A DNA stretch of 64,000 nt from Candidatus Tityobacter terrigena (GTDB taxonomy: Bacteria > Vulcanimicrobiota > Vulcanimicrobiia > Vulcanimicrobiales > Vulcanimicrobiaceae). This document shows, piece by piece, positions 17,230-36,720 of this stretch (within the stretch, counting starts at the first letter, position 1; the number at the start of each line of letters is the position of its first letter). The stretch lies in contig PMHO01000018.1 of the NCBI GenBank assembly GCA_003156715.1, forward strand, positions 1 to 64,000, in the 5' to 3' direction. The notes under the pieces were generated by a model. That model was given only the letters and a program-made list of their open reading frames with translations, did not search any database and had not been told where the DNA came from. Made by a program: the position numbers and the translations under genes.

Positions 17230-17291
17230 CCTGCATCCTCATTTAGCGGTTCTAGTGCGGCTCCACCAACTCTACTATGCGCGGTCATCGT

Positions 17292-17362
17292 CGTGCGTCT
17301 CACTTTGTGCGCACAGTCTGAGACGTTTTGTCTCACTTAGCGTGCACGAAGTGGGACACACG
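17292..17362. other. Repeat-rich divergent gap, candidate oriT or operator
   Basis: Between the divergent relaxase and ParA operons, a roughly 23-base segment (17292-17314) is repeated in imperfect inverted form at 17342-17362. Inside it lies a perfect 6-base inverted repeat with a 5-base loop (TGAGAC at 17319-17324, GTCTCA at 17330-17335). GTCTCACTT occurs twice as a direct repeat. Nested inverted repeats beside a relaxase and a ribbon-helix-helix gene are the usual look of an origin of transfer. No nick site can be named from sequence. Confidence 0.5.
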
Positions 17363-17417
17363 ACTTTTTTAGAGGCGCTACACTGTCGGTACGACTCACA
17401 GACCATCGAGGTAACAA

Positions 17418-17768
17418 GTGACATCATCGGAATTGGAAACGATCCTAGAGCGCCTTGAAACAGTTGCGCCAAGGTCGCGCCTGAGCGAGAAACGCCAGCT
17501 CCTTAGCGGTGCTCGCGAGCGCATCCTTGAGCTCCGACGCCGCGGACACTCCTGGCGCTCAATGGCCCGAGAACTCTCGGCAGCAATCGGCGAGACGGTC
17601 AGTGCTGACTTACTCCGTGCGGCTTGCATCAAACGCGTCGCACGGCGTCGTTCATCGCGCGCAGCGGCCGCGGGCCCTATTGCCAAAATGGCGGAAAACA
17701 CGCCGACGCCAAGACTCGTCATGACGCCTAACGACGGTCGCTTCGGCGCAAAGGGTCTGAAGCTATGA
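17418..17768 (+). CDS. Small basic protein, first gene of the transfer operon
   Basis: A 116-residue protein that starts at GTG 17418 behind GAGGT (17408-17412). Residues about 25-70 (RERILELRRRGHSWRSMAREL, then ADLLRAACIKR) look like a compact helical DNA-binding motif, followed by a basic, Ala-rich tail. I cannot assign it to a named family. Its end overlaps the ParA-like gene by 4 bases (ATGA at 17765-17768), so it belongs to that operon and may be a DNA-binding partner for the ATPase. Confidence 0.6.
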   Translation: MTSSELETILERLETVAPRSRLSEKRQLLSGARERILELRRRGHSWRSMARELSAAIGETVSADLLRAACIKRVARRRSSRAAAAGPIAKMAENTPTPRLVMTPNDGRFGAKGLKL

Positions 17769-18541
17769 GCGCACGCCGTCTCATCGCGATGGTTGCCCAG
17801 AAAGGCGGCGTTGGGAAGACGCACGCCGCGAAGTTGGAGTACGACCTTCTACAGCGGCGCGGTCGCCGAGTTGAGGCCTGGGACCTCGATGCTTCGACCG
17901 GTACGTTTGCCGTATACGACGAGGCGATTAAGACGTTTGATCTGAACGATTCGAGCGAGGCGTATTCGTGGCTCGACGATTGCTATCGCGCTGACATAGA
18001 TGACGTGCTTATCGACGTGCCTGGTGGCCGTATCGATGATCTGCTCCGCACATTCGGAGATAACAGCGTCGACGCTCTTGTCTCCGCCGTGCGGGACTCT
18101 GGACGCGAGCTTGTCGTCCTGACACCAATCGGAGTAAATATCGCCGAGACCGTGACGGCTCAGGTCGTTCTCAATGCGTTCGGAGAAACCGCTGCGCGCG
18201 TCGTTGTCATAAAGAACGGGCGCTTTGGCAACGCAGATGATTTTGTTATATACGACGGCATCGAGGTCGGGGGGGAACGCCGCTACGGCGCGACCGGCGA
18301 TCTCGCGGCGAGCGTTGGGGCCGAGACGATCTGTCTGCCGTGCTTGGCGCCGCGTCTGCTGGCACAGGTAGACGCCGAGCGTTTGCGCCTCTGCGAGGCC
18401 GCTAGCGCGACCGGGGCCGATCGCCTTGGGCGCCTGAACGCGACGCGGGTGCAGATGTACCTCTCCTCCGTCGAGGCGGCATTTCGCGGTACGTCGCTGG
18501 CAATCGACGGCGTCATTCCGCAGCGAGCCGCGGCACGATGA
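17765..18541 (+). CDS. ParA/MinD-like ATPase
   Basis: A 258-residue P-loop ATPase with the deviant Walker A motif KGGVGKT at residues 14-20. A VEAWDLDAS stretch fills the position of switch I, and DDVLIDVPGG acts as a Walker B-like strand. The C-terminal half is less conserved. Within mobile elements such proteins position the DNA or the relaxosome (VirC1-like) or partition the excised form. No ParB-like gene is visible next to it, so a relaxosome-positioning role is a reasonable inference. It overlaps its neighbours by 4 bases on both sides. Confidence 0.8.
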   Translation: MSARRLIAMVAQKGGVGKTHAAKLEYDLLQRRGRRVEAWDLDASTGTFAVYDEAIKTFDLNDSSEAYSWLDDCYRADIDDVLIDVPGGRIDDLLRTFGDNSVDALVSAVRDSGRELVVLTPIGVNIAETVTAQVVLNAFGETAARVVVIKNGRFGNADDFVIYDGIEVGGERRYGATGDLAASVGAETICLPCLAPRLLAQVDAERLRLCEAASATGADRLGRLNATRVQMYLSSVEAAFRGTSLAIDGVIPQRAAAR

Positions 18542-19044
18542 ACGACAGTGCACGCGATGTTTACCTTGCCTCGCTCGATGCGAGGAGCGAACTCAATGCC
18601 CGCCGGCTAGCTGAGCTTTCGCACATCCCCGATGACGATGCGATGTGGTTGCTCATGCACGAGACGCAGCGCTCGGTGCGCGAGGTCATCAACGGTGCCA
18701 ATATCGCTCTTACGAACGAGCCCTTTGCTCAACGGCTGTCGGTTGCCGTGGCGACCAGCGTCGCGCGCGACGAGCGTATTGCAACAGCACTAACGGCCGC
18801 CATCGAACGCACCTATGAGGCGGCGACGCGCGCGCTCCGCTCGCTCGAAGTTGCACTCCACGACGTGGTAAGGCGACGCGCCGCAGCGCCGCTTTCATCG
18901 CTCGCCTTCTCCTTCACGCTCGGACTGACCGTGTGCTGCGCATTGATTTGGAGTGCCTATCACGCCGGATCAGACTACGGCTACAACCTTGGCTACCGTG
19001 CCGGATACCAAGCGGGAATTCTCTACGAAAGGAATCACCGGTGA
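18538..19044 (+). CDS. Single-TM protein with a GYxxGY tail
   Basis: A 168-residue unknown protein. About 120 helical residues precede one membrane segment (SLAFSFTLGLTVCCALIWSAY) and a short tail in which Tyr-Gly repeats every four residues (YGYNLGYRAGYQAG). The Gly/Tyr spacing suggests helix packing or oligomerisation. Overlaps of 4 bases with the ParA-like gene before it and the coupling-protein gene after it suggest it works with both, perhaps linking the ATPase to the membrane coupling protein. That link is inference. Confidence 0.65.
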   Translation: MNDSARDVYLASLDARSELNARRLAELSHIPDDDAMWLLMHETQRSVREVINGANIALTNEPFAQRLSVAVATSVARDERIATALTAAIERTYEAATRALRSLEVALHDVVRRRAAAPLSSLAFSFTLGLTVCCALIWSAYHAGSDYGYNLGYRAGYQAGILYERNHR

Positions 19045-21131
19045 CTGCCTACCACATCCGGGAGTCGCAAGGGCGAATTGTTGCGCTGTGCGTGGCGGTT
19101 GTTGATCCCTTTGCATTCGTCGTCGCTGGCCTCTGGCTCGCCCTCCAGTTGCGCCCGATCGCCGAATCTTGGATGCAGCATCATCCGCTGCACTACCTCG
19201 CCTGGGCCGTCGCGCTCTACGCCGGCATTGTCCTCATTGTGGCGAACGCTATGGTACCGCTCTCGCTTCTTGCGCGAGGGCTTGGTATCTCGAAGGAGGT
19301 CTTTCGAGACGTGCGGCCGAGGCACGTCGCGTTCTGGATCGGCATCGCGCTGGTCGTCCTGTCGCACGATGTGCATGCCACGCAGTGGATTGAGCGTCAA
19401 GACCCTCTACCCGATTACACGGGAACTGCGATCCTTACGATAATCGGTAGCATGGCGATATTCTTCGGCGCTTGCGGCCTTGGACGCGCCGCCTGGAACG
19501 CGGCCACGACAGCTACTACGAGCTCGTTGTGCCAAGCGAAAAATCGATCTCGTTGGTTTAACCGTGCGGGGCAGATCACGCTCTGCGGCGGTATCGCTAA
19601 AGGCGTGTTTCGTCATCGTAACCTCGCCAACGGAGCCCCCAGGAAAGGCGAGGTATTGCTCTATGGCGAGCGCAGCGCAAATCGCGGTACGCTCGCAATC
19701 GGCGCACCGGGGTCGTCAAAAACCCGCTGCAAACTTTACCCGGATCTGTATTGGGGGCTTCTCACCTCGCCTCGTGCCGGCGCCCTGATCTTCGTGACAA
19801 AACGCAGAGCGACGAACGATTTTCTGGCGATTACGCGCCCATTCCGTACCGAAACGCAAACCCATGTTGTCGGCATCGGAGAAGGACGCGCCACGATGGA
19901 CATCACGGCTGGAATGACACATGAGGCGATCGGCGACGCGATCCAGGACGGCATCGGACAGTCGCAGAGCGATTTTTGGAAACACGGTCCCTCAGAGTTC
20001 GTCGAAGGACTGGTCGAGCTGATCCAAGCCCTAGCCCCTGCCATGATCCATGTCGCGGCGGCGACAGATAAGGACGGCACGGTGGAACCTGGCGGCGAGG
20101 CCTATGACCTCGAAATCGGCGATACGCTGCCGACTCTGCTGAGGTTAATCTCCCTCGATGACCGTCGGCTCGATGCCGTCTTCGGGTACGGTTTCGACCG
20201 TGCGACGGGGATTGCCAGTAAGAATTCTGCAAAAGCCGAGGATCTACGCGCGCTCCTTTATGGCATCAGGGAACGTCTCGTTCCGCTCTTGCAACGTGAC
20301 GCGAAGCTCGGAGAGGAATTTCGGCAAAGCGTGCTTCCGCAGATCCAGCCGTTTGGCCGCGGCAGCGTCCGTGACGCTTTCTGCGATCACGCCGGCATCG
20401 ACTTGTCGTTGATCGAGCATGGCCACGTTATTATCCTCGAGATCGACGAGACCGAACACCCCAGGGCCGTAGGGACAATCGTGCGTATGGTCTTCCGTCG
20501 CATTGCACAGATGGCACGTCAACGAACGGCGAGCCATCGCGTCGGAAGCCTCGATCCCATCCTACTGATCTGCGATGAGTATACAAACTACGCAGCACTA
20601 GGTCACGCGCAAATCTGGAACACCATCCGCGAATCAAACTTTTGCGCGACGGTCGGAATCACCAGCGTTAGTGCTCTAGCCGAACAGCTTGGAAAAGCAT
20701 CAACCGCAAACTCGATCGTCGGAAATTTTGCGAATAAGATATTCTTTGAGAGCGACGATAAGACGACGCGCGACCTAGCAAATGAACTTGTCGGGAAGAC
20801 GACCGTTATCCGGCGCGGCGCAAGCGAGGGTACGTCGAAGACGCGCGGTACGTCCGCAAACGCATCCATCAGCGGCGGTGGGTCGCACCAGTCGCGCGGG
20901 ACGACTCGAAGTGAGTCCACGAGTGAGCAACGCGAAGACGCTCTCGATGGCAGCGTCTGGCGAAGCTTGTACGCCGAAAAAGGGCACGCCACGGCGATCG
21001 CTTTTGTTCGCACGGAAGAAGGCACCACGACCGACGTAGTCACTCTCGGGGTGCTCGATCCGGCTGAACAGATCGCTACCGCGCTCCCAGAAGCCTACGG
21101 ACTTTATCAGCGACCTGGCGTTAGCTGCTAG
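19041..21131 (+). CDS. Type IV coupling protein (VirD4/TraG/TraD-like)
   Basis: A 696-residue membrane ATPase. GTG 19041 overlaps the previous stop (GTGA). The first 160 residues carry four or so membrane segments. A nucleotide-binding domain follows with GAPGSSKT as a Walker A variant, and LLICDEYTN as Walker B near residue 510, next to WNTIRESNFCATVGITS. A Ser/Thr/Gly-rich linker lies near residue 600. These hexameric pumps deliver the relaxase-DNA complex to a type IV secretion channel. No channel genes are in the window, so the element probably borrows one. The 3' end overlaps the convergent gene by 11 bases. Confidence 0.88.
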   Translation: MTAYHIRESQGRIVALCVAVVDPFAFVVAGLWLALQLRPIAESWMQHHPLHYLAWAVALYAGIVLIVANAMVPLSLLARGLGISKEVFRDVRPRHVAFWIGIALVVLSHDVHATQWIERQDPLPDYTGTAILTIIGSMAIFFGACGLGRAAWNAATTATTSSLCQAKNRSRWFNRAGQITLCGGIAKGVFRHRNLANGAPRKGEVLLYGERSANRGTLAIGAPGSSKTRCKLYPDLYWGLLTSPRAGALIFVTKRRATNDFLAITRPFRTETQTHVVGIGEGRATMDITAGMTHEAIGDAIQDGIGQSQSDFWKHGPSEFVEGLVELIQALAPAMIHVAAATDKDGTVEPGGEAYDLEIGDTLPTLLRLISLDDRRLDAVFGYGFDRATGIASKNSAKAEDLRALLYGIRERLVPLLQRDAKLGEEFRQSVLPQIQPFGRGSVRDAFCDHAGIDLSLIEHGHVIILEIDETEHPRAVGTIVRMVFRRIAQMARQRTASHRVGSLDPILLICDEYTNYAALGHAQIWNTIRESNFCATVGITSVSALAEQLGKASTANSIVGNFANKIFFESDDKTTRDLANELVGKTTVIRRGASEGTSKTRGTSANASISGGGSHQSRGTTRSESTSEQREDALDGSVWRSLYAEKGHATAIAFVRTEEGTTTDVVTLGVLDPAEQIATALPEAYGLYQRPGVSC

Positions 21132-21633
21132 GAGGAACAGGTATACCGAAACGACGGCGTTGGCGCAGCCAAACCGTCTTCGCTTCCTCCTCGGACTGAC
21201 AGGTTCGGAGGTACCACGTCCAGTCTCGTTGCGAAACGGCATCATACTGAGCTTTGAATAGGCGCCGCGCTTCGATCTCGTCGGCCCGTTCATTCTCAGG
21301 GACGTAGAGAAAGTCGTCCCACGTTACGCGTACGAGACCGTCGTCGTTGTCGGCGGATGAGATCTCAATACAATCAAGGAGCGCAGCTAGGGCGTTCCAC
21401 GCATCATCCTTCTCGTTGATCGCGCGGTGCGCGTCCGCCAGACGATATCCGAGGCCGCGCATATCGCGGACCGAATTGGAGTGGGAACCTTGATTAGGCT
21501 CGATGGGCTGTTCGAGGTATAGCTTGACCGCCTCGTTGACCAGTGCCGTGATGCTCTTCTCGTCCTGACGAGCCCGTTCGCGCAGTTTCTTCGAGATATC
21601 GTCCGGGAAGCGGACCAAGATCGAATCGGCCAT
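21121..21633 (-). CDS. Ribbon-helix-helix protein with C-terminal domain
   Basis: A 170-residue protein. Residues about 5-45 are a ribbon-helix-helix: ILVRFPDDISKKLRERARQ, then KSITALVNEAVKLYL. The other 120 residues are acidic and unassigned. ATG 21631-21633 sits behind GAGGA, which is a better start than the TTG one codon upstream. A striking set of ATATAG half-sites lies 33 bases upstream (21666-21698), as expected for an autoregulated Arc/CopG-type repressor. It is convergent with the coupling-protein gene. Confidence 0.75.
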   Translation of the reverse strand: MADSILVRFPDDISKKLRERARQDEKSITALVNEAVKLYLEQPIEPNQGSHSNSVRDMRGLGYRLADAHRAINEKDDAWNALAALLDCIEISSADNDDGLVRVTWDDFLYVPENERADEIEARRLFKAQYDAVSQRDWTWYLRTCQSEEEAKTVWLRQRRRFGIPVPPSS

Positions 21634-21665
21634 CAAATCCTCGTAAACGGTAAGCGCCCGCTTGA

Positions 21666-21698
21666 CGATATAGTTTCTATATAGTACGCTCTATATCG
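21666..21698. promoter_or_regulatory. Operator-like array of ATATAG half-sites
   Basis: CGATATAG (21666-21673) and CTATATCG (21691-21698) form a perfect 8-base inverted repeat, and between them lies a self-palindromic CTATATAG (21677-21684). The array is just upstream of the ribbon-helix-helix gene on the minus strand. Evenly placed half-sites fit a ribbon-helix-helix repressor. CGCTCTATA inside the array also occurs at 13387-13395. Confidence 0.6.
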
Positions 21699-21869
21699 CC
21701 GCATTCGAGCCGATATCCTTGGTCTTGAAAAACTAAGCGGTCTGTAGGTTCCGGTGATCGAGAAGAAGGCCCCCACTTCCGAAGCCTCTTTGGGCTACGC
21801 GGTCCGAGATACCGCCTATTGCGTAGCCGCAACTGGCCATGCGAGCGCGCGGCACAGGTTCGTCGCCTG

Positions 21870-22265
21870 ATGCGCGCCTCGATTAGCCGCCTTTCGCGCG
21901 AAGATACACTTCGATACGCAGAACTCATCCGGACGTTTATGCGGGAATGCCATCTTTCCGGTTATTCGCTCTTCTTAGGAGCTGAATTTCCGCGAGCGAC
22001 CCTCATGCGCTGGTTGAACGGGGAATCGCGGATTCCGGTCGACGCGGCGCAGACGTTAGTCAGAAGCCTGACGAGCCACGCAGAAGAAATTTCGAAAAGT
22101 CCGGCACTTAAAGAGCTGCAGGCCTTACTCAATGCTCATCGCGTCCACGACGTTAGCGCATCGCGACTACATCTTGAACTGCGTGCTCGACGAATTCCGA
22201 TTCGGCGAACGCTTGAAGCGTTGCGCGCAGCAAACGTACTGCCTCCGGGGCCCAGCGTGGGTTGA
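21870..22265 (+). CDS. Unknown protein of the mobile element
   Basis: A 131-residue protein if translation starts at ATG 21870; an upstream start at 21819 is possible but adds an Arg-rich leader. It is predicted mostly helical, with YAELIRTFMRECHLSGYSLFLG and LMRWLNGESRIPVDAAQTLV suggesting an HTH-like or phage-regulator-like fold. I do not recognise the family. It is divergent from the ribbon-helix-helix gene, so the operator at 21666-21698 could also affect it. Confidence 0.5.
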   Translation: MRASISRLSREDTLRYAELIRTFMRECHLSGYSLFLGAEFPRATLMRWLNGESRIPVDAAQTLVRSLTSHAEEISKSPALKELQALLNAHRVHDVSASRLHLELRARRIPIRRTLEALRAANVLPPGPSVG

Positions 22266-22361
22266 TTGGGCTATGACTCTGCAGGTGAAGTTACCAAGCT
22301 GGCTTCGGTCGACATTTGCTCGGCAAGGCACATTCTCATCTAGACCGGTTAGGAGCTGATC

Positions 22362-23168
22362 ATGCCTCTACTGAACCCGGATTTCGATCCGGATTGGAAA
22401 GCAAGATTTGAGCGTGCGAAACGTCGAGTCGATGCGACGGGCAATCAAGAGCATCTTTCGGCAATGCATAACGCCTTTTGGTCTCGATATCGGACGATGG
22501 CGGAGATTCGAGACTTTCATTTCGATGCCGTGAGGCGGAAAGCGAATATATGGGATCTCGAAGTAACGATCCCGCACCTAGACGATGATTGCACTTGGGA
22601 TGATATAGCTCTCGTGTCCTCACACCTCGAGGATGCAATTAACGAGCATATCACGCAAGGGGGAAGACTTGGTCATCAGAACCCGGAGGGATTACACGCG
22701 TTTTTCCCCGACGACTCGGCGCAACGGTTCACTGAGTACTATCAATATACGGGCTTCTGGAATTTTCCGTCGGCGTGCTACATAACGACCGAATACCAGG
22801 AAAGCGCGGCCCACGTCTGCTTCACCCTCATACCCAATGCGGGAACCTCTCCCATCAACATGATTGTGGAGTTGGCAACCTCGATTTACCATGACAAGCT
22901 CGCTGGCCGCTACGATCCTGGAGAAGCGAAATGGTACACCTATTTCCGTTTCGCTGGGCCCGGGGGACACGAGGGATTCTGGCAGGCTGTTCTCAGCTGG
23001 GACAAACAACGTAAGAAATACACGAAGGTGGAATGGCTGCACTTCTCCTCTGTACCGGCCGTGATCGCCGAGAGCACTGAACTTGAAACGGATCCGCAGG
23101 AGCCCTTAGTTCGCCCTCGGGTGATTAGTGCGATTGACGATGAGGACGCCGGCGAGCGCGATGCGTAA
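22362..23168 (+). CDS. Unknown cargo protein
   Basis: A 268-residue soluble protein that starts at ATG 22362 behind TTAGGAGC. It is rich in aromatic and acidic residues (FTEYYQYTGFWNFPSACYITTEY, then KWYTYFRFAGPGGHEGFWQ) and has no signal peptide or membrane segment. I know of no matching family. The GC content is visibly lower than that of the chromosome genes to the right, consistent with recent acquisition. It lies between element regulators and the integrase module, a common place for cargo. Confidence 0.65.
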   Translation: MPLLNPDFDPDWKARFERAKRRVDATGNQEHLSAMHNAFWSRYRTMAEIRDFHFDAVRRKANIWDLEVTIPHLDDDCTWDDIALVSSHLEDAINEHITQGGRLGHQNPEGLHAFFPDDSAQRFTEYYQYTGFWNFPSACYITTEYQESAAHVCFTLIPNAGTSPINMIVELATSIYHDKLAGRYDPGEAKWYTYFRFAGPGGHEGFWQAVLSWDKQRKKYTKVEWLHFSSVPAVIAESTELETDPQEPLVRPRVISAIDDEDAGERDA

Positions 23169-23237
23169 GTTTCGAGAGGGCCAAGACCCGCTATCAACGC
23201 GAGCGTCGGCATTTTGCTCACGGAGGGCCTCGTTTTC

Positions 23238-23444
23238 ATGCAACTAGATCTCGCCGGCCAGAACAAGCTCACGCGTCAAGAGGCTGCCGCCAGACTTCGC
23301 GTACATACCGATACGCTTGATCGGTGGGCGGACGCCGGGCTCATCCGCCCGATGCGCTATCCGTCGCCAAATGGCGGGCGACCGACGATTCGATACACCG
23401 TCGGTGAAATCGACCGCTTTGAGCGAGAGGCGATGTCGCGCTGA
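23238..23444 (+). CDS. MerR-type helix-turn-helix protein (excisionase-like)
   Basis: A 68-residue protein starting at ATG 23238, with GGAGG about 10 bases upstream. KLTRQEAAARLRVHTDTLDRWADAGLIRP is a MerR/excisionase winged helix, followed by a short wing (GGRPTIRYT) and a final helix. There is no effector domain. Just upstream of the integrase, a protein of this size is most likely the recombination directionality factor, although a plain DNA-binding regulator cannot be excluded. Confidence 0.7.
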   Translation: MQLDLAGQNKLTRQEAAARLRVHTDTLDRWADAGLIRPMRYPSPNGGRPTIRYTVGEIDRFEREAMSR

Positions 23445-23498
23445 CCCCCTCCGGCAATTGGCGCCAATGTCGTAGCAATCAGAAACGAGAGTACCCAG

Positions 23499-24599
23499 AT
23501 GGCAGACCGTCGAGCAGACCGCGAAGGCTCAAAGCCCGTAAAACGGGCCAACGGACGATACCAGTGCGCTATTCAGGTGAATGGAACGCGGCGCTACTTT
23601 ACCGGGGCGACTGCCTCGATCGCTCGCGAGAAGATGAGGGCGTGGCTCCGGTCACCCGAAGCTGCCGATCCGACCAAGCTTGATGGGCATACGTGCGTTT
23701 CCGACCTCTTGGACTCATATGTGAAACGCATAGCGGAGTCTAGAGCGGACAAAACATATCGTAGCTATGAGAGCGTTGTTCGGCACCACATAAAGCCGCG
23801 CATCGGCCTCTTACATCCCGCCAAGGTTACGCCGAAACACATATCCGCGATGCTCGATGACATGCGAACCTCGCCCATCGCCATCAAAGGGAAGCCTAAG
23901 CACGGGCGGGCGAAGCGGCTGATTGGCGTGCGCACACGTGAGCTTGCCTATATCATCGTCGGCGCTGCGTTTAAAATAAGTTCTCCAGGCCTGCTTTCGG
24001 GTGTAGAAAAGCCAAAGTACAAGTCAGAGGAAATGCGTCCTTGGAAGGGCGACGAAGCGGCACGCTTCCTGGCGTGCGTCGACCGAGTAGGCGACGCGAA
24101 CCGTGCCCTCTACCGTGTCGCGCTTCGAACAGGGGCTCGCAAGGGAGAACTGCTTGCGTTGCGGGTCAACGATTTCGACGCGAAGGCGTGCAGCATCCGC
24201 ATTACAAAGAGTTACAACGAGAAATTGCGAGAAGATGGGCCCACCAAAACGCCATCTTCCCGACGAAGCATCGCTCTGTCGAGCGAGACGGTCGCTGCGA
24301 TAAAGAAGCACATTCTTGCGACGGGCGTGCGCAGCGACGATCGCCTCTTTCCAATTCACGACGTCCGGCAGCTCACCAAAGAGATGCAGCGTGCCATGCG
24401 GTCCGCCGGCGTTCCGGTCATTCGCTTCCACGACCTCCGGCACACCTTCGCAACGCTGGCACTTGCAGCGCGAGTCCCGTTCAAGGTGGTGTCGGAGATG
24501 CTTGGACACAAGAGCGTGAAGCTCACCCTTGATACCTACGCCCATACGCTGCCCGGCATGCACGAGTCCGCAGTTGAAGCGCTCGAGGCGGCGTTCTAA
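23499..24599 (+). CDS. int: Tyrosine recombinase / site-specific integrase
   Basis: A 366-residue integrase. An N-terminal arm-binding region (about 1-60) and a SAM-like core-binding domain (about 65-150) precede the catalytic domain. Catalytic residues visible: Arg in TGARKGELLAL, the HDLRH box (His and Arg), the GHKSVKLT His and the Tyr of LDTYAHT near residue 346. All are present, so it should be active. The integrase, with its small HTH partner upstream and a tRNA piece 1.1 kb downstream, marks the right end of the element. Confidence 0.93.
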   Translation: MADRRADREGSKPVKRANGRYQCAIQVNGTRRYFTGATASIAREKMRAWLRSPEAADPTKLDGHTCVSDLLDSYVKRIAESRADKTYRSYESVVRHHIKPRIGLLHPAKVTPKHISAMLDDMRTSPIAIKGKPKHGRAKRLIGVRTRELAYIIVGAAFKISSPGLLSGVEKPKYKSEEMRPWKGDEAARFLACVDRVGDANRALYRVALRTGARKGELLALRVNDFDAKACSIRITKSYNEKLREDGPTKTPSSRRSIALSSETVAAIKKHILATGVRSDDRLFPIHDVRQLTKEMQRAMRSAGVPVIRFHDLRHTFATLALAARVPFKVVSEMLGHKSVKLTLDTYAHTLPGMHESAVEALEAAF

Positions 24600-27492: not shown

Positions 27493-27906
27493 TTACGGTT
27501 TTTGGATCGTCGCGGTATCAGTGCTCGCAACGGACGCGCTCAAGGGCCGCGAACCTGCTTTGTGGCCGTTTTTCTGCAGAATGTACGCGAGGATGCTGAG
27601 GTACTGCGCCTTCGAGAGCGTTCCTGGAGCCGTCATCGGCATCTGCTGTGAGATGTATTCGTACACTTCCGCGAGCGACTGCTGTGCGATCGCGCTCGTT
27701 CTGCCGACGAGAGCAGGCGCCGTAACACCCCCCAGATTTGCGCCGTGACATGAGGCGCAGTTTTTCGCGTACGTTTTCGCTCCAATTGCAGCCTGAGGCG
27801 CGGTAAATGCAATGGCATCACCTCCTGCGGCCGCGCGGGCGAAAGGCAAGAGCGTAGCCGACAGCGTCGTAGCAGCCAAGAAAATGCGTAAGGCAGCGAG
27901 CCTCAA
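27493..27906 (-). CDS. Small exported c-type cytochrome
   Basis: A 137-residue protein starting at TTG 27906 behind a strong AGGGAGGT (plus-strand 27912-27919). A signal peptide (about 26 residues ending FARAAA) precedes a single heme-binding CASCH (Cys50, Cys53, His54). A Met-rich stretch at 89-91 (MPM) supplies the likely axial ligand. The only heme protein next to a PQQ alcohol dehydrogenase on the same strand is its probable electron acceptor in the periplasm. Longer in-frame starts add an Arg/His-rich segment inside the dehydrogenase gene and are unlikely. Confidence 0.85.
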   Translation of the reverse strand: MRLAALRIFLAATTLSATLLPFARAAAGGDAIAFTAPQAAIGAKTYAKNCASCHGANLGGVTAPALVGRTSAIAQQSLAEVYEYISQQMPMTAPGTLSKAQYLSILAYILQKNGHKAGSRPLSASVASTDTATIQKP

Positions 27907-28031
27907 GACCGACCTCCCTAGGTGAAGGCTGAAAAGCGACGTAACCGGCAACGCACTTTCGTGAATTGCCGGTACGTCACTTGCGATGACCGTTGGCGAC
28001 CGCGATGAAGACGCGGTTCGGCACCAAGGAG

Positions 28032-29843
28032 TTAGTGCGTGGTGGTGGCCGCAGGCACGCCTGCAAACGATCTCGCCCGCATCGCGCCCGACGGCGCCAT
28101 GCCTGCACTCGAGCCGTTCAAGACCCATGTGTAGACCATCGAGCCTTTCGGAATGCCGGCTAGCCACGGCACGGAGGCGGCGAAGAACTTCGAGACGACG
28201 CCGCCGGTGCCCGAAGGGATCGAGACATACTGTTTGCCGCCTTCGGAATAGGTGATCGGCGACGCGTTGAGACCGCTGGCCGTCTTGGTCGACCAGACCG
28301 TGTCGCCGGTGGCCTCGTCGAGGGCGAGCAGCTTGCCTTCCGGGGTTCCGATGAACACGAGGCCGCCTGCGGTGATGAGGGCACCGTCGAGCATCGGAGA
28401 GCGGAAGCGTTTCTTCCAGACCTGCTTGCCGCTGGTGATGTCGATCGCCACAACGCTGCCGGAAAGAACCGCTTTCTTGAAGCCGGCGCCTCCGTTGAAG
28501 GTTGCCGGCTTCGGATTCATATCCGATTTCGGAAGGGGATCGATCTCGATCGAACCCTCGAGCAGCGGAATGACCATCAGATGCTTCTGCGGATCGTACG
28601 CGCTCGGCTCCCAGTTCTTGCCGCCGATAACGGAGGGGTAGAGCTCGTACGGCTTGCGCGCGTTCGCCGCGCTCTGGATGCTTTGATTCAAGGCGATCTT
28701 GCCGTCGCGCGTGACGGTGCCCCAGTTGATCTTGTCGAGCAGCGGCACGGCATAGATCAATTTGCCCGTCACGCGATTGATCACGTAGAGGTAACCGTTT
28801 CGATCGGCATGGGCGATCGCGGGAACCGTCGCGCCGTCGACGCTGGCGTCGACGAGAAGGGGTTCGCTGACGCTATCGAAGTCCCAGATATCGTGTGGCG
28901 TGAACTGGTAGAACCACTTCATCTTGCCGGTCTCCGGCGAAAGCGCAAGCACGGAGCTTGAATAGAGCAGCGTCCCTCTGAGGCTGTTAGCGTCCCAGTC
29001 CGGATTTGGGTTGCCCGTGCCCCAGTAGACGGTGTCGAGCTTCGGGTCGTACGTTCCCGGTAACCACGTCGGCGCGCCGCCGCGCGCCGCTACTCCGGGA
29101 ACTTTCCACGTGTCGTAACCAGGCTCGCCCGGGCCTGGAATCGTGAAGTGGCGCCAAATCTGCTTCCCGGTAGCGACGTCGTACGCGGCGATGAAGCCGC
29201 GAGTGGTGTACTCGCCGCCGCCGACACCGGTTAGGACCATATTTTTGACCGGCAGCGGCGGGCTCGTGATGTCGTAAGCACGGCTATTGGGCGCAACCGT
29301 CGTGTTCCACAGAACCTTGCCGGTCGCCGCGTCCAGCGCCACGAGGTGGGCGTCGAGGGTGCCGAAGATGACCTTGTTTCCACTGAGCGTAACGCCGCGG
29401 TTATCCGTATCGCAGCATGCCCGCGGCAATGATGTAGCCGGGAGCTGATACTTGTAAACCCACTTTTTCGCACCCGACGCGGCGTCGAATGCCCACACCG
29501 TCGAGTTACCAGTCGTCACGTACATCACGCCGTTGGAGACGACTGGCGTTGCCTCCATAGCGACGGGGGGCCCGAGCGTTTTCTTCCAAGCGAGGGTGAG
29601 CTTCGAAACCGAAGACTTATCGATGGCCTGAAGTGGACTGTAACGATTTGCACCGAGGTCCCGGCCGTACCAGAGCCACGAACTGCCGTCGTCGGAGCCG
29701 GCTCCCTCGAGTTGCTGAGATGAGACGCCCGGTGCCTCGTCCGCCGTCGCCGCGCGCATCACCGGCACCGATAGAAAAGCAAAGCCTGCGAGCGCGAGGA
29801 CGCACGCCTGAATTCTTGAGATCTGCAAGAAAAATCTCCCCAA
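28032..29843 (-). CDS. PQQ-dependent alcohol dehydrogenase, predicted lanthanide type
   Basis: A 603-residue periplasmic quinoprotein with a signal peptide and an eight-bladed propeller of W-motif blades (VLWNT, IWRHF, MKWFYQ, VWKKRF, TVWSTK). The vicinal disulfide is Cys143-Cys144. Metal and PQQ ligands visible are Glu in GGEYTTRG and Asn in WGTGNPNPDWD. The catalytic Asp321 (W320-D321-F322-D323) is followed two residues on by Asp323, the extra Asp that marks lanthanide-dependent XoxF/PedH enzymes; calcium enzymes have Ala or Ser there. It oxidises an alcohol, with electrons passing to the adjacent cytochrome c. Methanol specificity cannot be claimed. Confidence 0.9.
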   Translation of the reverse strand: MGRFFLQISRIQACVLALAGFAFLSVPVMRAATADEAPGVSSQQLEGAGSDDGSSWLWYGRDLGANRYSPLQAIDKSSVSKLTLAWKKTLGPPVAMEATPVVSNGVMYVTTGNSTVWAFDAASGAKKWVYKYQLPATSLPRACCDTDNRGVTLSGNKVIFGTLDAHLVALDAATGKVLWNTTVAPNSRAYDITSPPLPVKNMVLTGVGGGEYTTRGFIAAYDVATGKQIWRHFTIPGPGEPGYDTWKVPGVAARGGAPTWLPGTYDPKLDTVYWGTGNPNPDWDANSLRGTLLYSSSVLALSPETGKMKWFYQFTPHDIWDFDSVSEPLLVDASVDGATVPAIAHADRNGYLYVINRVTGKLIYAVPLLDKINWGTVTRDGKIALNQSIQSAANARKPYELYPSVIGGKNWEPSAYDPQKHLMVIPLLEGSIEIDPLPKSDMNPKPATFNGGAGFKKAVLSGSVVAIDITSGKQVWKKRFRSPMLDGALITAGGLVFIGTPEGKLLALDEATGDTVWSTKTASGLNASPITYSEGGKQYVSIPSGTGGVVSKFFAASVPWLAGIPKGSMVYTWVLNGSSAGMAPSGAMRARSFAGVPAATTTH

Positions 29844-30048: not shown

Positions 30049-30825
30049 CTACATCGCTAGGAATGAAGCGCTCGGAGAAGCCGGATCGCTGAGCACGCGC
30101 CCGTAGAAGCCGCAAATGTGCGAGCGCAGAGCTTCCGCCGCGGCATCGCCTTGACTTGCCCGAATCTTTCCGGCGATCTCGAGGTGTTCGGTGGCCAGCA
30201 GTTCGCGTTCGGAGTCCCAATCCTCCAGTTTCGAGAAGGCAACGAGCATCACGCGCGCCATCGATTCTCGGATAGCTTCCATCAGTACCGGCGCAAGGGT
30301 GTTGCCGGAAACGCGAGCGATCGTCACGTGGAACTCGGTATCGGCCGCGAGGAACTGCTGGGCGTCGGTAATTCCCACCATCCTTTGGGCCGCCGCAAGC
30401 AGCTGGGCCTTTTGCTCCGGTGTCGCGCGCGTTGACGCCGAACGGCCTGAGAGCATCTCGAGCGCTACGCGGATCTCGAGCAGATCGGAGAACGGTATTC
30501 GCTGCAACGATGAGTACAGATCGAGCAGCGCGCTGAGACCGCTCGTTCCATCCGCGGATACGGTCCAGCCCGATTCGGGACCGGCCCCCCGCCGCGCCGA
30601 TAGGACACCGAAGGCCTCGAGCATGCGAAGCCCCTCTCGAACCGACTGACGACTTACGCCAAAGAGCTTCGCCAGCTCGCGCTCGTGGGGAAGCCGGTCC
30701 CCGATTGCGAGCCGGCCCTCGGCGACCGCTTGCTTCAGCTGTAAGATAACTTCCTCAAAGGCACGGCGGGGCCGGATCGGCGTTATCCCGGTTAGGCTGT
30801 TGGGCCTATGGTTCGACCTTTGCAC
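30049..30825 (-). CDS. FadR-type GntR family regulator (FCD domain)
   Basis: A 258-residue regulator. Residues about 15-85 hold a GntR winged helix (LPHERELAKLFGVSRQSVREGLRMLEAFG with the typical SRQSVREGL). The rest is an all-helical FCD ligand domain with Asp and His residues for metal or acid binding (ADTEFHVTIARVSGN, then HICGFYGR). The chosen GTG 30825 lies 7 bases after TATACT, so it may be leaderless; longer frames upstream are low-complexity. It is divergent from the 2-hydroxyacyl-CoA mutase-type operon, and a perfect consensus operator lies on that operon's promoter. Ligand is probably a hydroxy acid or acyl-CoA of that pathway (inference). Confidence 0.85.
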   Translation of the reverse strand: MQRSNHRPNSLTGITPIRPRRAFEEVILQLKQAVAEGRLAIGDRLPHERELAKLFGVSRQSVREGLRMLEAFGVLSARRGAGPESGWTVSADGTSGLSALLDLYSSLQRIPFSDLLEIRVALEMLSGRSASTRATPEQKAQLLAAAQRMVGITDAQQFLAADTEFHVTIARVSGNTLAPVLMEAIRESMARVMLVAFSKLEDWDSERELLATEHLEIAGKIRASQGDAAAEALRSHICGFYGRVLSDPASPSASFLAM

Positions 30826-30902
30826 CCCGCAAGTATAGCATGCGCTCAAGCTACGGTTGCTTTGGGGCAGAAGCGGTGCGCAGTAGGCGACGGGAGGTCC
30901 GC

Positions 30903-30941
30903 TTGACAAGAGAAGCGTGGCTTGGTACATTGGTAGGACCA
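30903..30941 (+). promoter_or_regulatory. Promoter plus FadR-family operator of the mutase operon
   Basis: TTGACA (30903-30908) and TACATT (30926-30931) are spaced exactly 17 bases. TTGGT-AGG-ACCAA (30930-30942) is a perfect palindrome, and its inner 11 bases (30931-30941) match the FadR-subfamily consensus TNGTNNNACNA at every fixed position. It covers the end of the -10 box and the expected transcription start. The GntR regulator transcribed away from here is the obvious repressor. Confidence 0.75.
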
Positions 30942-31091
30942 ACGGACCTAGCCAGGGCGCAGCCCTGTCCTGGGCTTTCTCCCGGCCTGGCGCTCGTTCG
31001 ACGTCGTCTGTCGGACCAGGCGCGGCGCAGCAGCCGGGCCGCCAATAATGCACGGCCTTTTCTCACCCGGTTCACAAGTCTGGAGAGAAGC

Positions 31092-31499
31092 GTGGCTCAA
31101 CCAATTCGGGTACTGGTCGCAAAAGTTGGCCTGGATGGCCACGATCGCGGGGCACGGGTCGTCGCTCGAACGCTGCGCGACGCCGGGATGGACGTGATCT
31201 ACTCGGGTCTTCATCGAACGCCCGAAGAAGTCGTCAACGCCGCCGTCCAGGAGGACGTCGACGTGCTCGGCGTCAGTTTGCTCTCGGGCGTGCAGATGAC
31301 GGTCTTTCCGAAGATCTTCAAGCTGTTGGGTGAGAAGGGCGTCAAAGACATGATCGTCGTCGCGGGCGGGGTCATGCCCGACGAAGACGTGGCGGCACTC
31401 AAAGAAATGGGCGTGCACGAAGTGATGCTTCAGGATACGCCGCCCGCCCAGATCGTGGCGACGCTGACGAAACTGGTGAGAGAACGTGGCGAGCGCTGA
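31092..31499 (+). CDS. hcmB: B12-binding small subunit of acyl-CoA mutase (2-hydroxyisobutyryl-CoA mutase type)
   Basis: A 135-residue protein starting at GTG 31092 behind GGAG. It is a stand-alone cobalamin-binding domain: AKVGLDGHDRGARVVARTL contains the DxHxxG motif whose His replaces dimethylbenzimidazole as the lower cobalt ligand, followed by GVSLLSG and VVAGGVMPDED. Methylmalonyl-, isobutyryl- and 2-hydroxyisobutyryl-CoA mutases with split subunits have a protein of just this size. The partner large subunit at 33908 carries the residues of the 2-hydroxyisobutyryl type. A leader of about 150 bases precedes it; I do not see a cobalamin riboswitch in it. Confidence 0.88.
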   Translation: MAQPIRVLVAKVGLDGHDRGARVVARTLRDAGMDVIYSGLHRTPEEVVNAAVQEDVDVLGVSLLSGVQMTVFPKIFKLLGEKGVKDMIVVAGGVMPDEDVAALKEMGVHEVMLQDTPPAQIVATLTKLVRERGER

Positions 31500-32940
31500 T
31501 CCGATCGCGCAGCCGATGGAGCTCTGGTCGTTTCCGGCTGCTTACGACAACGACTATTTTCCGCCCGAGGGGAGCCGCTACTGGTTTCCCAGGCGCGAGA
31601 CGATGCCGCCGGTGGAGCGCGAAGCGGCAATCTTGCAGCGGCTCCAGGTCGTTTGCCGCTACGCTTACGAGAACGCGCCGTTTTACCGGCGCAAGTGGAG
31701 CGCAGCGGGCTTTCATCCCGACCAGCTGCGCTCGCTGGAGGATTTCGAAGACAAGGTTCCCGTGATCACCAAGAAAGACTTGCGGGAGTCTCAAGCAGCG
31801 TCCCCGCCTTTCGGCGACTATCTTTGCATCCCGGATAGCGAGATCTTTCACGTTCACGGAACGAGCGGCACGACCGGCCGCCCGACCGCGTTCGCGGTCG
31901 GGCGCGGCGACTGGAAGGCGATCGCCAACGCTCACGCTCGAATCATGTGGGCGATGGGAATGCGGCCGGGCGACATGATCTGCTACGCCGCGATATTTAG
32001 CCTCTATCTGGGAAGCTGGGGCGGCCTCGCGGGCGCGGAACGGCTCCACGCCAAGGCGTTTCCATTCGGCGCAGGTGCGCCCGGGATGACGGCGCGTTGC
32101 GCACAGTGGCTACACGCCATGCGCCCCGCAGGCTTCTACGGCACGCCGACCTTCGCCATCCATCTCGCGCAAACGGCATTGAGCGAGGGGCTCGATCCGC
32201 GCGATTTCGGCCTGAAGTACATGTACTTTTCCGGCGAGCCGGGCGCTTCGATCCCAGGCGTGCGCAATAGGATCGAGCAGTTCTACGGGGCCAAAGTATT
32301 CGATTCCGGTTCGATGGCCGAGATGACGCCGTGGATGAACGTCGCCGGGTCGGCGCAGACGGACGGGATGTTGTGCTGGCAGGATATCGTTTATACGGAG
32401 GTCTGCGACCCAGCGTCGATGCGGCGCGTCTCGTACGGACGGCGCGGAACGCCGGTCTACACGCATCTCGAGCGCACCTCGCAGCCGATGATCCGTCTCG
32501 CATCGGGCGATTTGACGGTGTGGGTCGACGAGCCGAATCCGTGCGGACGAACCTATCCGCGTTTGCCGCAGGGTATCTTCGGCCGGATCGACGACATGTT
32601 TACGATCCGCGGCGAAAACGTCTACCCGAGCGAAATCGATGCCGCGTTGAACGAGACGGCGGGTTATGGAGGCGAGCACCGGATCGTCATCACTCGAGAG
32701 GGTGCGATGGACGAACTCCTGCTGCGGGTCGAGTGCGACTTCGAGGGGCCGGAAATGCGGGAGGACTTCCGGCAAGACGTTTCCCGCCGCATCCACAAGA
32801 TGCTCGGCCTGCGAACCAAAGCGGAAGTCGTGGCGGCGGGTACCTTACCGCGCACGGATTTCAAAGCCCGCCGAGTGATCGACGACCGCGACGTTTTCCG
32901 TGACATGAACGCGCAGATCGAGGCGGAGCGAGTCCAATGA
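31486..32940 (+). CDS. hcl: Acyl-CoA ligase, PaaK-like (candidate 2-hydroxyisobutyrate-CoA ligase)
   Basis: A 484-residue AMP-forming CoA ligase that starts at GTG 31486, overlapping the hcmB end by 14 bases. Seen: an N-terminal RYAYENAPFYRRKW as in phenylacetate-CoA ligases, the P-loop HGTSGTTGRPT near 125, YFSGEPGAS, GSMAEMTPW, the ATP-binding GRIDDMFTIRGENVYPSEID near 365-385, and a small C-terminal domain ending in TLPRTDFKARRV with the catalytic Lys. Known hcm clusters contain a ligase that activates 2-hydroxyisobutyrate, which fits its position between the two mutase subunits. A phenylacetate-type substrate cannot be excluded on sequence alone. Confidence 0.8.
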   Translation: MASADPIAQPMELWSFPAAYDNDYFPPEGSRYWFPRRETMPPVEREAAILQRLQVVCRYAYENAPFYRRKWSAAGFHPDQLRSLEDFEDKVPVITKKDLRESQAASPPFGDYLCIPDSEIFHVHGTSGTTGRPTAFAVGRGDWKAIANAHARIMWAMGMRPGDMICYAAIFSLYLGSWGGLAGAERLHAKAFPFGAGAPGMTARCAQWLHAMRPAGFYGTPTFAIHLAQTALSEGLDPRDFGLKYMYFSGEPGASIPGVRNRIEQFYGAKVFDSGSMAEMTPWMNVAGSAQTDGMLCWQDIVYTEVCDPASMRRVSYGRRGTPVYTHLERTSQPMIRLASGDLTVWVDEPNPCGRTYPRLPQGIFGRIDDMFTIRGENVYPSEIDAALNETAGYGGEHRIVITREGAMDELLLRVECDFEGPEMREDFRQDVSRRIHKMLGLRTKAEVVAAGTLPRTDFKARRVIDDRDVFRDMNAQIEAERVQ

Positions 32941-33911
32941 GCCGATACGTCCCGTCGCGCGAGCTGGTCGAACGGGTCGCGAACGGTGAGATTCCCGCGA
33001 TTGCCCGAATGATTTCGCGCGCCGAAGCGGGCCTGCCGGAAGCGCGCGAGGCTCTCGCCGAAATCTATCAGCGGGCCGGTCGCGCCCATGTCATCGGGCT
33101 CACCGGCGTGCCGGGCAGCGGCAAGTCGACCATGGTCTGCGCGCTTGCAGCCCGTTTACGCGCCGGCGGTTCAAAGGTCGGTATCGTCGCAGTCGACCCT
33201 TCGAGCCCGTATTCGGGCGGTTCGATCCTCGGCGACCGGATCCGCATGACCGATCTGAGCGGCGATCCGGGCGTCTACATTCGCAGTATGGCGACGCGCG
33301 GCGTCATGGGCGGCATGGCGCGCGCAACGATGGACGCCGTCGACATTCTCGACGTCGCCGGCTTCGAAACGGTCATCATCGAGACGGTCGGCGTCGGTCA
33401 GGACGAAGTTGAGATTGCCAAGGCGGCCGACACGACCGTGGTGGTTTCGGCGCCTGGTCTGGGGGACGAGATTCAGGCGATCAAAGCCGGCATGCTCGAA
33501 ATCGCCGACGTGCACGTCGTGTCCAAGTGCGATCGCAGCGATGCTCAGCGCACGTTGATGGACCTCAAGGGGATGTTGACCCTCGGCGTAAGGCAAGGCA
33601 AGAATTCGGAGTGGCGCGTCCCGGTCGTCGGCGTCAGCTCGTACGACGGGTCCGGCTTCGAGGAGCTGATGAGCGCGCTAGAACGGCATCGCAACGTCGC
33701 CCTGCACACCGAGAGCGGGCGCGAGCGCAGGGTCGCCATCGCCGGATTTCGTTTAACGAAAACTGCGGAGAATCTACTGATGGAACGCTTTGCAAGGGCT
33801 TGCGCACCGTTGACGCTCGGCTTTGCCCAACGGCTGCACCGCCACGATGGCGACCCATACTCGCTCGCGGGCGAACTCGTCGCCGCTTCATTCGGAAAGG
33901 AACGATCATGA
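32937..33911 (+). CDS. meaB: MeaB/ArgK-type G3E GTPase, mutase chaperone
   Basis: A 324-residue GTPase: Walker A GVPGSGKS near residue 60, DPSSPYSGGSILGDRIRM (the MeaB signature), ETVGVGQDEVEIA as Walker B/switch, and SKCD replacing the usual NKxD base-recognition motif. MeaB-type proteins load adenosylcobalamin into acyl-CoA mutases and protect them from inactivation. ATGA overlaps at both ends (32937-32940 and 33908-33911) tie it to the ligase and the mutase large subunit; hcm clusters have such a GTPase (MeaH). Confidence 0.9.
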   Translation: MSRYVPSRELVERVANGEIPAIARMISRAEAGLPEAREALAEIYQRAGRAHVIGLTGVPGSGKSTMVCALAARLRAGGSKVGIVAVDPSSPYSGGSILGDRIRMTDLSGDPGVYIRSMATRGVMGGMARATMDAVDILDVAGFETVIIETVGVGQDEVEIAKAADTTVVVSAPGLGDEIQAIKAGMLEIADVHVVSKCDRSDAQRTLMDLKGMLTLGVRQGKNSEWRVPVVGVSSYDGSGFEELMSALERHRNVALHTESGRERRVAIAGFRLTKTAENLLMERFARACAPLTLGFAQRLHRHDGDPYSLAGELVAASFGKERS

Positions 33912-35614
33912 GAGACACCGTTGAGAGAAACGTTCTCGACGCAAAAGCCATCGAAGATTTGCGCGAGCAAGAGCGTGACTGGGAAGCCACCGAGGTCGCG
34001 CAGTTCCTTCAGAAGCAGGCGGAACGCAAGCCTGGTTTCCTGACCTTGGGCGACTTCCCGGTCAAACGCACGTACACGGCCGCCGACCTCGTCGAGACTC
34101 CAATCGAGGATATCGGTCTGCCCGGGCGCTACCCGTTCACGCGCGGCCCGTACCCGACGATGTATCGTTCGCGCAACTGGACGATGCGTCAGATCGCCGG
34201 TTTCGGCACGGGCGAGGACACGAACAAGCGCTTCAAATTCTTGATCTCCCAGGGCCAGACCGGTATATCGACGGATTTCGACATGCCGACGCTGATGGGC
34301 TACGACTCCGACCACCCGATGAGCGAGGGTGAAGTCGGCCGCGAAGGCGTTGCGATCGACACGCTCGCCGACATGGAGGCGCTCTTCGAGGGCATCGATC
34401 TGGAGCAGATCTCTGTGTCGATGACGATCAATCCGTCGGCCTGGATTCTGCTGGCGATGTACGTCGTGCTGGCACAGCAGCGGGGCTACGATCTGCACAA
34501 GCTCTCCGGCACGATCCAAGCGGACATTCTCAAAGAGTACATGGCGCAGAAGGAATATATTTTCCCGATCGAGCCTTCCGTTCGAATCGTTCGCGACTGC
34601 ATCACGTATTGCGCGAAGAAGATGAAGCGCTACAATCCGATCAACATCTCGGGGTATCACATCTCCGAGGCGGGATCCTCCCCGCTTCAAGAGGCGGCCT
34701 TTACCCTGGCCAACCTGATCGTCTACGTCGAGGAGGTGCTCAAGACCGGCATGCAGGTCGACGAGTTCGCCCCGCGGCTCGCTTTCTTTTTCGTATGTCA
34801 GGCCGATTTTTTCGAAGAGATCGCAAAGTTCCGCGCTCTGCGCCGCTGCTATGCGAAGCTCATGCGCGAGCGCTTCGGAGCCAAGAACCCCGAATCGATG
34901 CGGTTGCGCTTCCACTGCCAGACCGCGGCGGCGTCGCTGACCAAGCCCCAGTACATGGTCAACGTCATGCGGACGACCTTGCAGGCGCTTGCGGCCGTCC
35001 TCGGCGGCTGCCAGTCACTGCACACCAACGGCTACGACGAGGCGTTCGCCATCCCGACCGAGGACGCGATGCGCCTGGCACTACGGACCCAACAGGTTAT
35101 CGCCGAGGAAAGCAACGTCACGCAAACGACCGATCCTCTGGGCGGCTCGTACTATGTCGAGGCGCTAACGACGGACTACGAGAAACGCATCTTCGAGATT
35201 CTCAAAGACGTCGATGAGCGCGGCGGCACGATCAAGCTGATCAAAGAGGGCTGGTTTCAACAGCAGGTTGCCGACTTCGCTTACGAGACGGCGCTGCGCA
35301 AGCAGTCCGGGGAAAAGCCGGTGATCGGCGTCAACACGATGGTCGACGATACCCCAGATCCGAAGATCGAGACGCATCCCTACGACCAAACGACCGCCGA
35401 ACGCCAGGTCGCGCGCACGCAGCGGGTACGTCGCGAGCGCGACGCCGCCACGTTCGATCGGCTCATGCAGCAACTGCTCGTCGTTGCGAAGGACGAGTCC
35501 CAGAACATCATGCCCATCACGATCGAACTCGTGCGGGCGGGTGCGACGATGGGCGACATCATCGAGACGCTGAAAACTCTTTGGGGCACGTATCGCGAGA
35601 CGCCGGTATACTAG
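33908..35614 (+). CDS. hcmA: Acyl-CoA mutase large subunit, 2-hydroxyisobutyryl-CoA mutase type
   Basis: A 568-residue catalytic TIM-barrel subunit without its own B12 domain. Family motifs: RGPYPTMYRSRNWTMRQIAGFG, DMPTLMGYDSDHP, SGYHISEAGS (His251) and RFHCQTA. Substrate residues: Ile96 (RQIAGF) stands where methylmalonyl-CoA mutase has Tyr89 and isobutyryl-CoA mutase Phe. Asp123 (STDFD), 27 residues on, matches HcmA Asp117. Gln214 (YMAQKEY) replaces the carboxylate-binding Arg207. Together these mark 2-hydroxyisobutyryl-CoA / 3-hydroxybutyryl-CoA interconversion, not methylmalonyl-CoA. ATG 33908 overlaps the GTPase stop. Numbering comparisons are from memory of the family. Confidence 0.88.
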   Translation: MRDTVERNVLDAKAIEDLREQERDWEATEVAQFLQKQAERKPGFLTLGDFPVKRTYTAADLVETPIEDIGLPGRYPFTRGPYPTMYRSRNWTMRQIAGFGTGEDTNKRFKFLISQGQTGISTDFDMPTLMGYDSDHPMSEGEVGREGVAIDTLADMEALFEGIDLEQISVSMTINPSAWILLAMYVVLAQQRGYDLHKLSGTIQADILKEYMAQKEYIFPIEPSVRIVRDCITYCAKKMKRYNPINISGYHISEAGSSPLQEAAFTLANLIVYVEEVLKTGMQVDEFAPRLAFFFVCQADFFEEIAKFRALRRCYAKLMRERFGAKNPESMRLRFHCQTAAASLTKPQYMVNVMRTTLQALAAVLGGCQSLHTNGYDEAFAIPTEDAMRLALRTQQVIAEESNVTQTTDPLGGSYYVEALTTDYEKRIFEILKDVDERGGTIKLIKEGWFQQQVADFAYETALRKQSGEKPVIGVNTMVDDTPDPKIETHPYDQTTAERQVARTQRVRRERDAATFDRLMQQLLVVAKDESQNIMPITIELVRAGATMGDIIETLKTLWGTYRETPVY

Positions 35615-36720
35615 TGGCCGCCTTGGCGCACGGGCAAGCGGGCTCCGGATGTGAATTCGGACCGGCGCAGCGCCGGGGGGACCTGCGAATGGCGCGCCGC
35701 GCCGGCGTCGCCCGGATCACGCTCGACCGGCCGGCCAAGCTCAACGCGCTCACTCCCCAAATGGTCCGCGACATGCGCTCCGTCCTGGACGAGGGGGAGC
35801 GCGATGCGACCCTTCGGCTCGTACTGATCGACGGCGCCGGGCCGCGCGGATTCTGTGCCGGCGGCGACGTCAAGTTCGTTCGTGACAGCGCTCTTGCGGA
35901 CGATGGACAGGCGCAGATCTTCTGGGCCGATGAGTACCGGCTGGATGCGAAGATCGCCGGATTCGGCAAGCCGATCGTGGCCTTCATGACCGGCATCGTC
36001 ATGGGTGGAGGCGTCGGCCTTTCGGCCCACACGCGCCACCGGATCGTCACGGCATCGACGCGATTCGCGATGCCCGAGGCCGGCATCGGGCTGATCCCGG
36101 ATGTCGGAAGCACCTGGCTGTTTGCGCGCGCGCCGGGCGAAGCCGGCACGTATCTCGCGCTCACCGGAAGGCATGTCGGCGCTGCCGATGCGATCGCGTT
36201 GGGATTCGCGGATCGTTTCGTTGCGGAAGAAGGCTTGGAAGCGCTGAAGGCAGCGCTCGTGCAGGATTCCCCGCGCGGCGACGATGACGTGCGTGCGGTC
36301 GTCGAGCGTTTCGCGTTGCCGCCCGGCGAGCCGCTCCTCTCCGCGCAGCGATCGCTCATCGATCGAGCCTTCGCGTACGATACGGTCGAGGAGATCCTCT
36401 GTGCACTCGGCAGGGACGGGTCCGGATTCGCGCTAGCGACCGCGCGCGAAATTGCTGCAAAATCACCCACGAGTCTGAAATTGACGTTGCGCGCGCTACG
36501 TGAAGCGCGAAGCCTCGACGGCTTGCAGGACTGCCTGCGGCTCGAATACCGGCTGGTGTGCCGCTTGCTTGGGGGACACGACTTTCTCGAAGGCATTCGG
36601 GCTGCGGTCATCGACAAGGATCGTCGCCCGAAATGGCGTCCGAGCGACCTCGGCGACGTCTCGCCGCCCGGCCTCGACGGCTACTTCGCTTCATTAGGAA
36701 CGAAGGAACTGCAGTTCTGA
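35614..36720 (+). CDS. 3-hydroxyisobutyryl-CoA hydrolase-like enoyl-CoA hydratase superfamily protein
   Basis: A 368-residue crotonase-fold protein beginning at GTG 35614, sharing one base with the mutase stop. ITLDRPAKLNAL, GFCAGGDVKFV (oxyanion hole), VMGGGVGLSAHTRH and MPEAGIGLIPDVGSTW are the pattern of 3-hydroxyisobutyryl-CoA hydrolase (HIBCH), including the Glu of MPEAG and the Asp of PDVG. That enzyme belongs to valine breakdown. Beside a 2-hydroxyisobutyryl-CoA mutase it may instead hydrolyse a related hydroxyacyl-CoA. It is the last gene of the operon. Confidence 0.8.
   Translation: MAALAHGQAGSGCEFGPAQRRGDLRMARRAGVARITLDRPAKLNALTPQMVRDMRSVLDEGERDATLRLVLIDGAGPRGFCAGGDVKFVRDSALADDGQAQIFWADEYRLDAKIAGFGKPIVAFMTGIVMGGGVGLSAHTRHRIVTASTRFAMPEAGIGLIPDVGSTWLFARAPGEAGTYLALTGRHVGAADAIALGFADRFVAEEGLEALKAALVQDSPRGDDDVRAVVERFALPPGEPLLSAQRSLIDRAFAYDTVEEILCALGRDGSGFALATAREIAAKSPTSLKLTLRALREARSLDGLQDCLRLEYRLVCRLLGGHDFLEGIRAAVIDKDRRPKWRPSDLGDVSPPGLDGYFASLGTKELQF

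Follow-up and report, generated by a model that had tools for sequence, protein, structure and literature searches.

A palindromic operator candidate for a divergent LldR-like regulator on the promoter of a 2-hydroxyisobutyryl-CoA mutase operon in Candidatus Tityobacter terrigena

The breakdown of MTBE, tert-butanol and isobutene proceeds through 2-hydroxyisobutyrate. A GntR gene usually adjoins the hcm clusters (PMC7176365). In Aquincola, Methylibium and other Proteobacteria, this neighbour of the hcm/hcl genes is of the FCD type and often divergent from the operon, with a palindrome close to the operon promoter. No published operator or effector was found in the literature for the GntR genes adjoining hcm operons. 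The consensus operator of the FadR subfamily of GntR regulators joins a TKGT box to an ACMA box across a 3-nt gap, counted from GT to AC, and LldR, PdhR, GlcC and others share this TKGT-N3-ACMA arrangement (PMC4494728). LldR of C. glutamicum (CGL2915, PDB 2di3) governs lactate use, whereas the locus described here is a B12 mutase operon for 2-hydroxyisobutyrate. E. coli FadR binds long-chain acyl-CoA and is not known to have the FCD metal site. The FCD regulator DhdR (PDB 9jpj) has a 2-hydroxy acid, D-2-hydroxyglutarate, as its ligand. The type of control considered below is already known; what is new is a well-supported example of an operator and its probable regulator, found in a stretch of 64,000 nucleotides of the soil bacterium Candidatus Tityobacter terrigena (contig PMHO01000018.1, hereafter the window).

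By the sequence of its products, the operon on the plus strand of the window is a genuine 2-hydroxyisobutyryl-CoA mutase operon. It starts with hcmB for the B12-binding small subunit (31092..31499; Pfam B12-binding 1e-24, TIGR00640 5e-45), followed by the gene for an hcl-type 2-hydroxyisobutyrate-CoA ligase of the phenylacetate-CoA-ligase family (31486..32940; 76-82% identical to alphaproteobacterial hcm-operon ligases), the gene for a MeaB-type GTPase chaperone of the mutase (32937..33911; Pfam MeaB 1e-85, TIGR00750 4e-88) and hcmA for the large subunit (33908..35614). HcmA scores 1039 bits against 4r3u, a solved 2-hydroxyisobutyryl-CoA mutase, versus 452 bits against methylmalonyl-CoA mutase, and its specificity positions hold Ile96 and Asp123, which correspond to Ile90 and Asp117 of the Aquincola enzyme. 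A 3-hydroxyisobutyryl-CoA hydrolase/enoyl-CoA hydratase-like gene with an uncertain start codon (35581..36720; Pfam ECH_2 1e-115) likely closes the operon. An ECH_2-type gene likewise lies downstream in two other genomes, G037 and G028.

The gap common to hcmB and the divergent GntR/FCD gene contains, 150 bp upstream of hcmB, a promoter with a 13-bp perfect inverted repeat, TTGGT-AGG-ACCAA (TTGGTAGGACCAA), at 30930-30942. The -35 hexamer TTGACA (30903..30908, plus strand) is separated by a 17-nt spacer from the -10 hexamer TACATT (30926..30931, plus strand), which is preceded by TGG and thus of the TG-type extended class. The repeat begins with the final two T of TACATT. Between 30700 and 31150, a promoter scan returned this TTGACA-17-TACATT promoter as the sole one (0.0 expected). 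All elements named in the preliminary description are therefore present and in place; the interval 30823-30942 that it quoted is the gap from regulator to operator rather than the operator proper. The core TGGT-AGG-ACCA agrees with the palindromic TKGT-N3-ACMA pattern of the FadR subfamily, its GT and AC being 3 nt apart as for C. glutamicum LldR, and is of the same TGGT...ACCA type as the operator of E. coli FadR.

How much of this could be due to chance depends on what is counted. The loose pattern TNGTNNNACNA occurs 8 times in the window versus 6.0 expected, a chance level, and was rejected as evidence. The full palindrome TTGGTNNNACCAA is not rare by itself either, since the 3.9 Mb genome has 2 occurrences versus 3 in a reversed control. 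Copies with one mismatch (45 per genome versus 30 in the control) were too noisy to be retained as a wider regulon. The composite TTGACA-N17-TANNTTGGTNNNACCAA, in which the -10 was relaxed from TACATT to TANNTT after the second site was known, has 2 exact matches in the genome and 0 in the control, with about 1e-5 expected. The second palindrome, at position 22460 of contig C32, also belongs to a promoter, TTGACA-17-TACTTT, and has the same register relative to it. In the 149 genomes of the phylum, the composite gave 3 exact matches, namely the two just mentioned and a third in G037, where it stands in front of hcmB. A protein search of the same set found close copies of the regulator only in this genome (two) and in G037 (one). 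The number of regulator copies thus equals the number of sites in each genome, one in G037 and two here. The composite of promoter and operator is not a chance product. A fortuitous palindrome on a promoter, for which the few copies expected per genome of the palindrome by itself could be invoked, is extremely improbable, as the composite is confined to genomes that hold the regulator and only the arms are conserved.

This conservation is seen in the sole close ortholog of the locus, L021, which is the same contig as G037. The GntR protein there is 74-75% identical to that of the window and the intergenic gap is 138 bp. Left and right arms are each identical (5/5 and 5/5, i.e. 10/10), as are the -35 (6/6) and the TGG with the -10 (9/9), whereas the promoter spacer (2/14) and the centre of the palindrome (1/3) have diverged. 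In a comparison of two sequences and one paralogous site, arms that are kept around a centre that is not form the pattern that a dimer-binding site should have. The proposal that an operator sits on the mutase promoter is borne out by these arms and by the composite.

We also examined 12 plasmid-borne homologs of the regulator, with 30-39% identity, by scanning 250 bp upstream of each. The motif TGGTNNNACCA was found for 6 of the 12, versus 0.03 expected. For a seventh homolog, that of Arthrobacter (L128), the annotated start is placed further downstream, and two copies therefore fall slightly beyond the fixed 250-bp limit. Together with the restriction of the composite to regulator-holding genomes, this favours the divergent GntR/FCD protein as the binder, as had been proposed, and the operator very probably belongs to this neighbouring LldR-like regulator, to judge from these sequence comparisons. 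It could instead be read mainly by another regulator, for instance a paralog with 52% identity encoded at 39823-40536 of C32, or be common to both proteins as one regulon. In the paralog the recognition region is nearly the same, and its own contig has an identical promoter-operator, in front of a pair of Ldh_2 and 3-hydroxyisobutyrate-dehydrogenase-like genes. As G037 has the window-type regulator without the paralog, and a single such site, we consider this reading unlikely.

The C32 locus (G000:C32:22433-41500; L003, L125, L108) contains, besides the paralog and the second promoter-operator, genes for a BMC shell protein, an aldehyde dehydrogenase, Ldh_2, a 3-hydroxyisobutyrate-dehydrogenase-like protein and Rieske oxygenase. 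It is possible, from this gene content, that it encodes a microcompartment under an LldR-like repressor.

The neighbouring regulator itself (30049..30825, minus strand) is a protein of 258 aa with a GTG start at 30825, an N-terminal GntR winged helix-turn-helix domain (PF00392, 1e-17) and a C-terminal FCD domain (PF07729, 9e-20). Its best sequence match is C. glutamicum LldR (2di3) with 110.8 bits, the next one having 53. The same structure is first by predicted fold, with modest TM-scores of about 0.5 that are probably due to the domain arrangement in the model (overall pLDDT 76, FCD part mostly above 90). In FCD folds, D/H/H/H ligands hold a metal; here D162, H166, H214 and H236 are invariant across 12 FCD proteins and have identical counterparts in the alignment with 2di3. 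The regulator is thus LldR-like by sequence and predicted fold. It is not an LldR ortholog, since it reaches 95 bits against a cut-off of 311 for the NCBIfam LldR equivalog, and it stays likewise below the cut-off of the FadR equivalog TIGR02812 (44.7 versus 249 bits). E. coli FadR, although of the same GntR subfamily, is only distantly similar to it (35.7 bits), and DhdR, although among the top fold matches, has low sequence similarity (46 bits) and belongs to a different pathway. The label "FadR-type" given in the preliminary description therefore holds for the operator, which fits the FadR-subfamily consensus, but does not extend to the protein, which is closest to C. glutamicum LldR and not to acyl-CoA-binding FadR. 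Relatives of the regulator adjoin genes for LutABC lactate oxidation, alpha-hydroxy acid oxidase and FAD-linked oxidase.

Its gene probably has its own promoter, with the extended -10 TGCTATACT (30832..30840, minus strand) kept 9/9 in L021. The GTG start is 6 nt downstream of TGCTATACT, and L021 has an ATG at equal distance; this short and conserved spacing points to a probably leaderless message. At the start of the regulator gene (30809..30819), the sequence TGGTTCGACCT, one mismatch away from TGGTNNNACCA and TGGTTTGACCT in L021, may be a weak second operator. This imperfect site could add weak autoregulation; its conservation is weak evidence because it lies in coding sequence.

From these data we infer that the regulator binds here, that it represses and does not activate, and which compound induces, as follows. 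As the last base of the -10 is 30931, transcription would start near 30938, and a dimer on 30930-30942 would cover about -8 to +5. Because the operator overlaps both the -10 and the +1 of the hcmB promoter, as the preliminary description's scheme of simple repression had it, the bound dimer would exclude polymerase and block transcription of hcmB-hcl-meaB-hcmA, and of the hydrolase gene if it belongs there. Free 2-hydroxyisobutyrate would sit at the FCD metal site, in the manner proposed for lactate in LldR-type regulators, and the repressor would then leave its operator. The regulator would be made constitutively from its extended -10 promoter. As a whole, this scheme, with the palindrome as operator of the LldR-like regulator, is in our view probable, with repression as the likely mode and free 2-hydroxyisobutyrate as the likely signal.

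The regulator could also activate, or both activate and repress, from this site. A dual role is reportedly ascribed to E. coli LldR, to go by the title of Aguilera et al. 2008. The promoter here has a consensus -35 and a TG-extended -10, and a dimer on a site that overlaps its -10 and +1 should exclude polymerase; either mode is accordingly very unlikely. As to the signal, the same operator and regulator might respond to a CoA ester, 2-hydroxyisobutyryl-CoA or 3-hydroxybutyryl-CoA, in the manner of the acyl-CoA-responsive FadR, which is in the same subfamily and whose structures are among the fold matches. We regard such an effector as quite unlikely: LldR is closest by sequence and by fold, all four metal ligands are kept, and the relatives of the regulator adjoin alpha-hydroxy-acid genes. 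A free alpha-hydroxy acid is the better guess on account of the closeness to LldR and of these four ligands, and since 2-hydroxyisobutyrate is 2-methyl-lactate, the metal-bound free acid would be a more natural effector than its CoA ester. A specific pair of operator and regulator for 2-hydroxyisobutyrate would be a candidate biosensor.

The proteobacterial hcm loci differ from this arrangement in the regulator and in the operator. Their divergent FCD regulators, of about 220 aa, are 25-31% identical to that of the window and belong to a different, shorter subfamily; they are not orthologous. The window palindrome is absent from the proteobacterial hcm promoters examined. In place of TTGGTNNNACCAA these carry other palindromes, among them GAATTCNGAATTC, which lies near a TTGACA, and GTATACCGTATAC. 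The hypothesis that the palindrome recurs upstream of homologous operons holds for the sole close ortholog (L021/G037) and fails for the proteobacterial hcm operons and for G028. The latter genome has a closely related operon (HcmA 87%) with neither this regulator nor the palindrome, which shows that such an operon need not come with this regulator. A search of 44 hcm-bearing genomes outside the phylum returned no closer homolog of the regulator at 1e-30, a search in which no positive control matched. HcmA is 92% identical to that of G037 and 84-87% to alphaproteobacterial enzymes, most other matches in the phylum being at about 57%.

These comparisons fit an operon that was acquired from Proteobacteria and whose regulator was changed afterwards. 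The regulator appears to have been replaced by one of another FCD branch while the layout stayed, which would make this locus a clean case of a regulator swapped for a different branch of its family with the control layout unchanged. It is possible, though somewhat less likely than not, that a dedicated 2-hydroxyisobutyrate sensor derived from an LldR-type lactate repressor took over a Proteobacteria-derived hcm operon and ousted its first FCD regulator, with the divergent gene and the operator on the promoter kept, and that a duplicate of it runs the microcompartment locus through the same operator.

Several other features were noted around these genes. In the proteobacterial loci L027, L036-L038, L022, L030, L083 and L093, the region upstream of hcmB has its own palindromes, of GAATTCNGAATTC or ATTCGTATACGAAAT type, near the start; by sequence, these are likely the operators of different proteobacterial FCD regulators. 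In L021 (6627-7995), hcmB runs straight into meaB with no CoA ligase gene in between, so that 2-hydroxyisobutyrate must be activated in a different manner or by a product of another locus. The mutase operon has a leader of about 150 nt in the window and of about 30 nt in L021. The additional sequence (30952-31085) is single-copy in the genome and not a genomic repeat, and comparison of the leader with Rfam gave no match of note to a riboswitch or other known RNA. An exact 14-bp direct repeat, AGAGAAGCGTGGCT, occurs at 30908-30921 and 31084-31097 (within a base or two). One copy occupies most of the promoter spacer and looks recent, because the L021 spacer is unrelated; the other forms the ribosome-binding site and start of hcmB. 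After the regulator gene and in the same direction (27493-29843, minus strand) are genes for a PQQ-dependent alcohol dehydrogenase of the methanol/ethanol family and a cytochrome c, which were not found beside L021. This pair could act ahead of the pathway by oxidising 2-methyl-1,2-propanediol. Finally, the region 13582-24599 of the window contains ORFs that read as relaxase-, ParA-, type IV coupling-protein- and tyrosine-integrase-like, and probably represents an integrative element in the vicinity of the hcm operon.
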